Source: Alphaproteobacteria bacterium
GTDB lineage: Bacteria; Pseudomonadota; Alphaproteobacteria; JAJFFI01
Reading direction: 5' to 3'
DNA length: 64,000 nucleotides
Assembly: GCA_030066595.1 (NCBI GenBank)
Contig: JASJBI010000013.1
Span: 1 to 64,000 of the forward strand
Shown here piece by piece: positions 33,974 to 39,102 of the stretch (position 1 is its first letter; each line of letters begins with the position of its first letter). The position numbers and the translations under genes were made by a program. Below the pieces are notes generated by a model. That model was given only the letters and a program-made list of their open reading frames with translations. It ran no database searches and was not told the DNA's origin.

Positions 33974-34798
33974 ATGTTATCGAGCCCATGGAAACGGCCT
34001 GATCGCCGCACCATGTCGAGCGTCGCTGTCGCGCTCGCACTTCTGTTGTCTGCGTGCAGCGGCACGGGGACCGACGACGAGTATGTCGAAGGTTCGGTCG
34101 AGACCCTGTACAACCAGGCCATGGACAACATGCTGACCGAGAACTACAAGACGGCGGCCAAGTTGTTCGACGAGGTTGAGCGCCAGCATCCCTACTCGGT
34201 GTGGGCGACCCGGGCGGAATTGATGGCGGCCTACGCCCATTACCAGGCCGAGAGCTATGACGAGGCGATCATCTCGCTGGACCGTTACATCCAGCTCCAC
34301 CCGGGCAGCCGCAACATCGCCTACGCCTATTATCTGAGGGCGCTGTCCCATCACGCGCAGATCGTCGATGTGCGGCGGGACCAAACCAATTCGGAGCGCG
34401 CCTTGAAGGCCTTCGAAGGCATGCTGCGCCGCTATCCCAACAGTCGATATTCGCAGGACGCCCGGCGCAAGATCGATGAGATCCGCGATCATATCGCCGG
34501 TGCCGAGATGAACCGCGGCCGCTACTATCTGCGGCGGGGGCAGTATCTGGCGGCGATCAACCGTTTCCGGGTGGTGGTGGACAAGTACCAGACGTCGAGC
34601 CAGGCGCCCGAGGCGCTGCACCGCCTGGTCGAGTGCTACGCCGCACTGGGCGTTCAGGAAGAGGCGCAGAAGGCGGCCGCGGTGCTGGGCTACAACTTCC
34701 CGGGCAGCAGCTGGTACGCCGACTCCTATGAAGTGGTCGAAGGCATCAATGTGCCCCCGCCAGAGGAAAAGCCGTCGCTATGGGCCCGGATCTTCTAG
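33974..34798 (+). CDS. bamD: Outer membrane assembly lipoprotein BamD
   Basis: 274 residues. The signal peptide ends in lipobox LLSAC. The mature protein has about five TPR-like repeats, beginning with VETLYNQAMDNMLTENYKTAAKLFDEVERQHPYSVWATRAELM, the ComL/YfiO hallmark. BamD works with BamA to insert beta-barrel proteins in the outer membrane. It has its own promoter. A structured repeat element begins five bases after its stop. Confidence 0.94.
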   Translation: MLSSPWKRPDRRTMSSVAVALALLLSACSGTGTDDEYVEGSVETLYNQAMDNMLTENYKTAAKLFDEVERQHPYSVWATRAELMAAYAHYQAESYDEAIISLDRYIQLHPGSRNIAYAYYLRALSHHAQIVDVRRDQTNSERALKAFEGMLRRYPNSRYSQDARRKIDEIRDHIAGAEMNRGRYYLRRGQYLAAINRFRVVVDKYQTSSQAPEALHRLVECYAALGVQEEAQKAAAVLGYNFPGSSWYADSYEVVEGINVPPPEEKPSLWARIF

Positions 34799-34802
34799 TG
34801 CC

Positions 34803-35339
34803 AGAGCGCTTCCCGACCATATGGGCCCATTCTGCCGGAGGCATTTTTCGCCATGACCAGGAAAGCGCCGCCGAGCGTATCCGTCATACGGTCAAGGCGC
34901 GATACCAAAGGTCCTTGATATTAACCGATCTGATGGTGGCAAATCGGGCTCTTCGGCCAGGCGCGGCGTGCAGCCCGATGCCTTTGCATCGGACCAGCGT
35001 CGCAACGCCGCCGAGGGGCCGATTTGCCCCACCGGAGGCCGCGGTGCTTTGTCCGCTCGCGTCGTTGCGGCCCGCTTGCGGTGCCACCACGCCGCGGCGC
35101 GAGCCGCGCCTGGCGAGCGGACAAAGGACCAGCGGTCAGACCGGTCAATATCAAAGACCTTTGGTATTGGACGACGTCATGGCGAAAAAGGTCCCGGCCC
35201 GATAGGGTTGCGTTTGGGCGGGCAGCTGCGGCGTTGCCGCCCTGACCCGATGCTCCGGCATCGCGTTGCGGGCGGCGCCTGGCGAACTGCCTCCCCCAAA
35301 CGGCAACAGAATTGTGCCCATATGGTCGGAAAGCGCTCT
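34803..35339. repeat. 537-bp nested palindromic element with 24-bp terminal inverted repeats
   Basis: The ends are 24-bp inverted repeats, AGAGCGCTTCCCGACCATAT... (34803-34826) and its complement (35316-35339), identical at 23 of 24 positions. Three more arm pairs nest inside. TTTTTCGCCATGAC (34844-34857) pairs with 35176-35189, perfect over 14. A 26-base block at 34902-34927 pairs with 35142-35167, 24 of 26 identical. CTTTGTCCGCTCGC (35047-35060) pairs with 35113-35126, perfect over 14. No convincing gene lies inside. It looks like a MITE or a composite of REP-type palindromes. It ends two bases before the recN ATG. Confidence 0.85.
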
Positions 35340-35341
35340 CG

Positions 35342-39102
<3,761 letters not shown>

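Follow-up and report, generated by a model that had tools for sequence, protein, structure and literature searches.

The 537-bp palindromic structure between bamD and recN was composed of two related gene-less mobile elements, one inserted within the other; it lay in a window of 64,000 nucleotides (the whole stretch of DNA analysed) from an alphaproteobacterial host. The two probably represented a MITE-like, CTAG-targeting family with a conserved folded interior. Its members were three-armed palindromes of about 270 bases, widespread in Alphaproteobacteria and apparently undescribed: no description of the family was found in open-licence papers, and Rfam had no entry for it. An odd palindrome thus becomes a searchable and testable family, with a fixed unit of about 270 bp and strong covariation.

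Two elements in the bamD-recN gap

The structure filled nearly all the space from the bamD stop codon (34796-34798) to the recN ATG at 35342 (Table 1). All the nested inverted arm pairs given in a preliminary description of this DNA were reproduced between the two genes, and the pairs detected included (i) 34826-34857/35176-35207, which reached 75% as an ungapped 32-nt pair and had a nearly perfect core of 18 nt, (ii) 35043-35060/35113-35130 (18 nt, 94%), and (iii) the additional pair 34938-34952/35014-35028. The best ungapped arm score was 23, the strongest of the window, whereas none of 300 first-order simulated sequences exceeded 14. The RNA fold of the structure had a free energy of -344.1 kcal/mol, versus -236.2 +/- 7.2 for shuffles (z = -15). 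The arms stood, but the single element into which they had been assembled did not, because the outer element was interrupted by the inner one at 34902-35167; the 108 bases that had been described as extra in the right half were the right arm belonging to the outer element itself.

Table 1. Features of the bamD-recN region (positions in the window)
Feature	Position	Strand	Remarks
bamD	34013..34798	+	start by simple gene caller; earlier ATG at 33974 possible
Outer element, left part	34801..34901	+	degenerate CTAG to insertion point; aligns with 13 uninterrupted copies; at least 35 matching stretches in host genome
Outer terminal stem, left arm	34803..34829	+	pairs with 35313-35339; 27 nt, 93% complementary; covaries between copies
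Outer left-arm stem, 5' side	34839..34857	+	pairs with 35176-35193; inner element sits within this arm
Inner element	34902..35167	+	266 bp, ends ATACC...GGTAT; not present in any other outer copy
Inner terminal stem, left arm	34902..34933	+	32 nt, 91% complementary to 35136-35167
Module, inner left arm	34946..35016	+	model R1, 73.5 bits
Module (variant), inner right arm	35054..35124	-	inverted versus left one; model R1, 64.8 bits
Inner terminal stem, right arm	35136..35167	-	pairs with 34902-34933
Outer element, right part	35168..35341	+	ends in degenerate CTAG; 86-91% identity with other full host copies
Outer left-arm stem, 3' side	35176..35193	-	
Module, outer right arm	35223..35293	-	model R1, 76.2 bits
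Outer terminal stem, right arm	35313..35339	-	covaries between copies; contains GGAAAG upstream of recN
recN	35342..37018	+	ATG directly 3' of outer element

With the structure as query, the host genome (5.08 Mb in 119 contigs; 90% complete) yielded 137 matches. Other host copies had query positions up to 105 joined directly to 373 onward, with the inner stretch absent; the outer element minus its inner part aligned end to end with 13 basic-type host copies, while some further host copies bore an extra insert or deletion. The outer element, about 273 bp in length, was found in about 27 full or nearly full host copies (about 270-396 bp), none other of which harbored the inner 266 bp, and a search of the assembly detected no second copy of the inner element. 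These outer copies were non-coding and multicopy, and they displayed terminal inverted repeats (27 nt at 93%; 32 nt at 91% in the inner element). No other copy contained both parts and each part occurred alone, which ruled out a single 537-bp element.

The outer ends in the window were degenerate CTAGs (CCAG at 34801-34804 and CTCG at 35338-35341), and the junction between inner and outer elements was uncertain by 1-2 nt, with no target duplication visible there. The outer element would first have entered a short bamD-recN gap, and the inner element would then have entered the left arm of the outer one. At this locus, recN was thereby set apart from bamD, and the nearest Shine-Dalgarno-like stretch, GGAAAG, lay in the terminal stem, from which lowered or uncoupled recN translation is predicted.

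A shared three-armed design kept by covariation

The inner and outer elements shared a common design: a terminal stem closed two arms, and the tip of each arm carried one copy of a common hairpin module of about 70 nt, the two copies being inverted. The small CCGATGC...GCATCG hairpins noticed earlier in both halves were the tips of this one conserved module (Table 1). The outer left arm carried a diverged module (32.3 bits, E = 8e-9), measured in the intact copy L006; in the window, the inner element interrupts that arm. The family unit measured about 265-275 bp and consisted of a stem-forming terminal inverted repeat plus two arms at a three-way junction, each with an inverted module of about 70 nt. 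A second end type, ATACC...GGTAT, carried the same interior as the CTAG-ended copies, and the inner element of the window was of this ATACC type.

Pairing was examined at three levels: (i) among 22 aligned modules, two-sided changes were present in 14 of the 21 pairs, and several unpaired bases, including those of AAG and of AA in GCAACGC, were nearly invariant; (ii) among the 14 basic host copies, nearly all two-sided changes fell in the terminal stem and the interior hardly varied, a pattern that may reflect selection for pairing, correction of either arm by its partner, or older divergence of the ends; and (iii) 17 elements, including two taken from genomes in a different class of the phylum, were aligned over their length. 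In this last alignment, two-sided changes were found in 57 of 70 consensus pairs (34.5 +/- 2.6 after shuffling; no more than 32 in slid controls), with a covariation score of 0.534 versus 0.171 +/- 0.011. The consensus structure allowed pairing in 91.2% of cells (69.9 +/- 0.8 after shuffling; no more than 43.5 in slid versions), a comparison that favors the true register over slid versions because the structure was derived from the same alignment; more weight should go to the two-sided counts. The dropping of one core into various pre-existing palindromes was considered as an origin for the covarying terminal stems. Solo palindromes of about 40 bp did occur, but the stems also covaried between genomes, and such an origin, while possible, is unneeded.

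Solo palindromes of about 40 bp and a simple hairpin of about 105 bp (L088, C32:10380; L089, C73:57424; L092, C16:98.6 kb) had the same CTAGAGC ends and were regarded as reduced or ancestral relatives. Six outer copies (L017, L018, L020, L024, L026, and L028) harbored a third nested piece, the GC-rich hairpin CCCACACCCCCACCCGGCC..., in the junction, and its loop in L018 and L024 was inverted relative to the other four, as if flipped. Between ligA and the next gene, the window also contained a perfect 20-nt inverted repeat TGATCACCCCCACCCGGCGC (39112-39131/39296-39315), and this repeat and the third nested hairpin had the string CCCCCACCCGG in common.

CTAG sites, gene ends, and relatives without the element

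The outer copies mostly started with CTAGAGC and finished with GCTCTAG, with no variable duplication; CTAG flanked both ends of most of them and, being self-complementary, may be either a target duplication or part of the ends. With gene positions taken from a simple codon-based gene caller, 27 of 27 outer copies were intergenic. The stop codon of a neighboring gene was exactly the TAG of the element at 12 ends, which belonged to 10 of 26 copies; at L020 and L023, both convergent neighbors ended on it. The genes of this kind that were checked were intact: YchF matched TIGR00092 to its last position, and MgtE and LolD matched their models almost to theirs. For these genes, whose C-termini were complete, the stop-codon match thus did not arise through truncation by the insertion.

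The window contained 30 CTAG sites versus about 192 expected from base composition, of which 10 were located at stop codons, 14 in intergenic DNA, and 6 in coding sequence. The share of copies at stop codons (10/26, 38%) was similar to that of window CTAG sites (10/30; p = 0.68); random use of CTAG predicts about one-third at stops, and thus the stop-codon position needs no special function. Elements of the CTAGAGC...GCTCTAG type would insert at CTAG and leave CTAG on both sides, so that an insertion at a CTAG stop codon would keep the stop and the protein. Since CTAG is rare inside coding sequence and common at TAG stops, targeting it would let an element enter gene-dense genomes without breaking genes.

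Relatives lacking the insertion were found at several loci. BamD homologues were present in 28 of 31 genomes, and the bamD-recN spacing in relatives, read by eye from sequence, was about 5-15 nt where the start was readable (about 15 nt in the same-family genome G001), compared to 543 nt in the window; the spacing was not conserved, and the window gap would shrink to 6 nt if one CTAG were kept. In G280, an element followed a gene ending in GGGGCTACTAG, while the orthologue in the congener G186 had the same GGGGCTACTAG without the element; this was the only empty site resolved at base level, and at its left junction only, the right flank being in another part of the G186 sequence retrieved. The two flanks of a second locus shared a G186 contig that had no element between them, the site being too diverged to align, and a third gene likewise had no element. 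As read from these sequences, the bamD-recN and G280/G186 loci displayed insertion polymorphism between relatives. The preliminary description had held that the lack of any other genome copy, together with conserved bamD-recN spacing, would speak against a mobile element; instead, the outer element was multicopy and the relatives were uninserted.

The same observations bear on the reading as a functional structured RNA (3'-UTR stabilizer, attenuator, or processing site) that is under selection at gene ends and has spread only secondarily. Its strong covariation, its unpaired bases conserved across families, and the many copies directly at gene ends fit such a role, but the stop-codon positions were those predicted by random CTAG use, the genomes compared had no sites in common, some copies lay upstream of genes, and the insertion was missing in congeners; this reading was therefore judged unlikely. 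Of the structured RNA proposed earlier for this gap, the part that held was a structure kept by covariation; it was kept family-wide wherever copies lay, and was not specific to bamD-recN.

Candidate mobilizers, known systems, and distribution

For the MITE-like family, the proposed mechanism is a non-autonomous transposition into CTAG sites, driven in trans by a transposase that would recognize the ends or the folded hairpins; the unpaired AAG and the AA bulge would be protein contacts. MITEs are often left without a surviving autonomous partner, and no matching end pair at insertion-sequence spacing was found in the host assembly (about 90% complete). The DDE_5 (IS701-like) transposase was rejected as the mobilizer, being absent from the host assembly. 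The four DDE_Tnp_1 loci of the host had terminal ends that differed from those of the elements (the host's own transposases). IS5-type insertion sequences target CTAG/YTAR, and they resembled the new family in having CTAG at both ends with a possible 4-bp duplication. One host DDE_Tnp_1 insertion sequence (L195; C104, about 39.1 kb) was flanked by CTAG and had terminal repeats GTTGGGGACTCATTC; these read GTTGGGGACTC..., unlike the AGCATTTTCCG... of the new family, and L195 was thus another mobile element with CTAG ends in the host.

A REP/BIME-type system of dimers that a RAYT (Y1) transposase would mobilize, akin to the GTAG/CGTC families, was very improbable. The CGTC REPs are the commonest in Alphaproteobacteria and occur mostly as head-to-head dimers, some with structured spacers, and REP dimers within larger palindromes have been reported (PMC3733652); like the new family, GTAG/CGTC REP dimers consist of hairpins paired in inverted orientation and lie between genes in Alphaproteobacteria. 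However, no Y1 transposase (PF01797) was detected in the host assembly by a search that was positive in 5 of 14 control genomes, and the element differed in its parts: REP units measure 20-40 bp and have terminal GTAG/CGTC tags (PMC3733652), whereas the new family lacked these tags and had modules of about 70 nt inside a fixed unit of about 270 nt, with ends of CTAG or ATACC. Among the alternatives first offered for the structure, a composite (two nested insertions) and a MITE-like nature were thus retained, while a composite of REP-like insertions failed by the REP definitions tested. An origin as one multiply nested 537-bp palindrome had practically no probability: its arms do nest and it folds well over its full length, but copies elsewhere carry either part alone, never both.

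Bacterial MITEs with stable folds (NEMIS, ERIC, RUP, Nezha, and QMITE) are likewise small, gene-less, multicopy, and intergenic, with terminal inverted repeats, a stable RNA fold, and mobility inferred in trans (PMC10969869, PMC3733652). MITEs are described as typically AT-rich (PMC10969869), whereas the new family was GC-rich; it further differed from the folded MITEs in having an interior conserved between families, two end types, and no known partner. The palindromic repeats Bru-RS of Brucella and RPE of Rickettsia, which are alphaproteobacterial, about 95-136 bp in length, and intergenic or within genes (PMC2267715), are, by their published descriptions, shorter than the new family.

The arrangement of two end types around one conserved interior is unusual for MITEs. 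A MITE needs only its ends, and these are normally the part that is kept. This raises the testable question of which force conserves the folded interior while the ends differ. One tentative answer, possible rather than probable, is that these three-armed palindromes of about 270 nt form an undescribed superfamily spanning Alpha- and Gammaproteobacteria, in which the conserved unit would be not the ends but the folded interior, including its two inverted modules. This unit would travel with different end types and be read by a dedicated protein, either a host factor or a recombinase that works on the folded strand.

The module was detected by model R1, whose E-values are rough, in 39 matches in the host (E <= 0.01), in 28 of 289 alphaproteobacterial genomes (E <= 1e-5; usually multicopy, and often as +/- pairs with starts 107-108 nt apart), and in 14 of 299 genomes of the phylum (E <= 1e-5). 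Homologues of the inner element occurred in other alphaproteobacterial families; those in G079 (two copies at 76%) and G227 (70%) were full-length, and those in G060, G008, and G280 were partial matches. Whole elements from other genomes measured 264-275 nt, with one gamma copy of 242 nt, the other class carrying them being, as we infer, Gammaproteobacteria. No Rfam family reached its gathering score: the structure gave sub-threshold matches only, six loci of other genomes gave none, and MIR1151, P33, and isrG were rejected as identities with scores far below their gathering scores. A GTDB pattern scan for the outer element, which possibly did not cover host-close records, gave two unrelated matches judged to be chance, and neither plasmid searches with outer-type and G280-type queries nor a phage search with the inner element gave any match.

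A full-length, unannotated relative of the inner element was located on plasmid punanmed2 of Agrobacterium sp. MA01. On plasmid p1536_1 of Nitratireductor thuwali, a partial module match (L199 2001-2095) was annotated as a hypothetical protein of 159 bp, NTH_RS21370, which may be a miscalled gene. Many module copies were located at contig ends (G246, G123, G280, and G186; C3:1 in the host); these repeats thus probably interrupt draft assemblies, and the copy numbers given are minimum values. In L160 and L031, fused ends GGTATTAGAGC joined both end types, which hints that ends of the ATACC type may likewise sit on a CTAG-like site.
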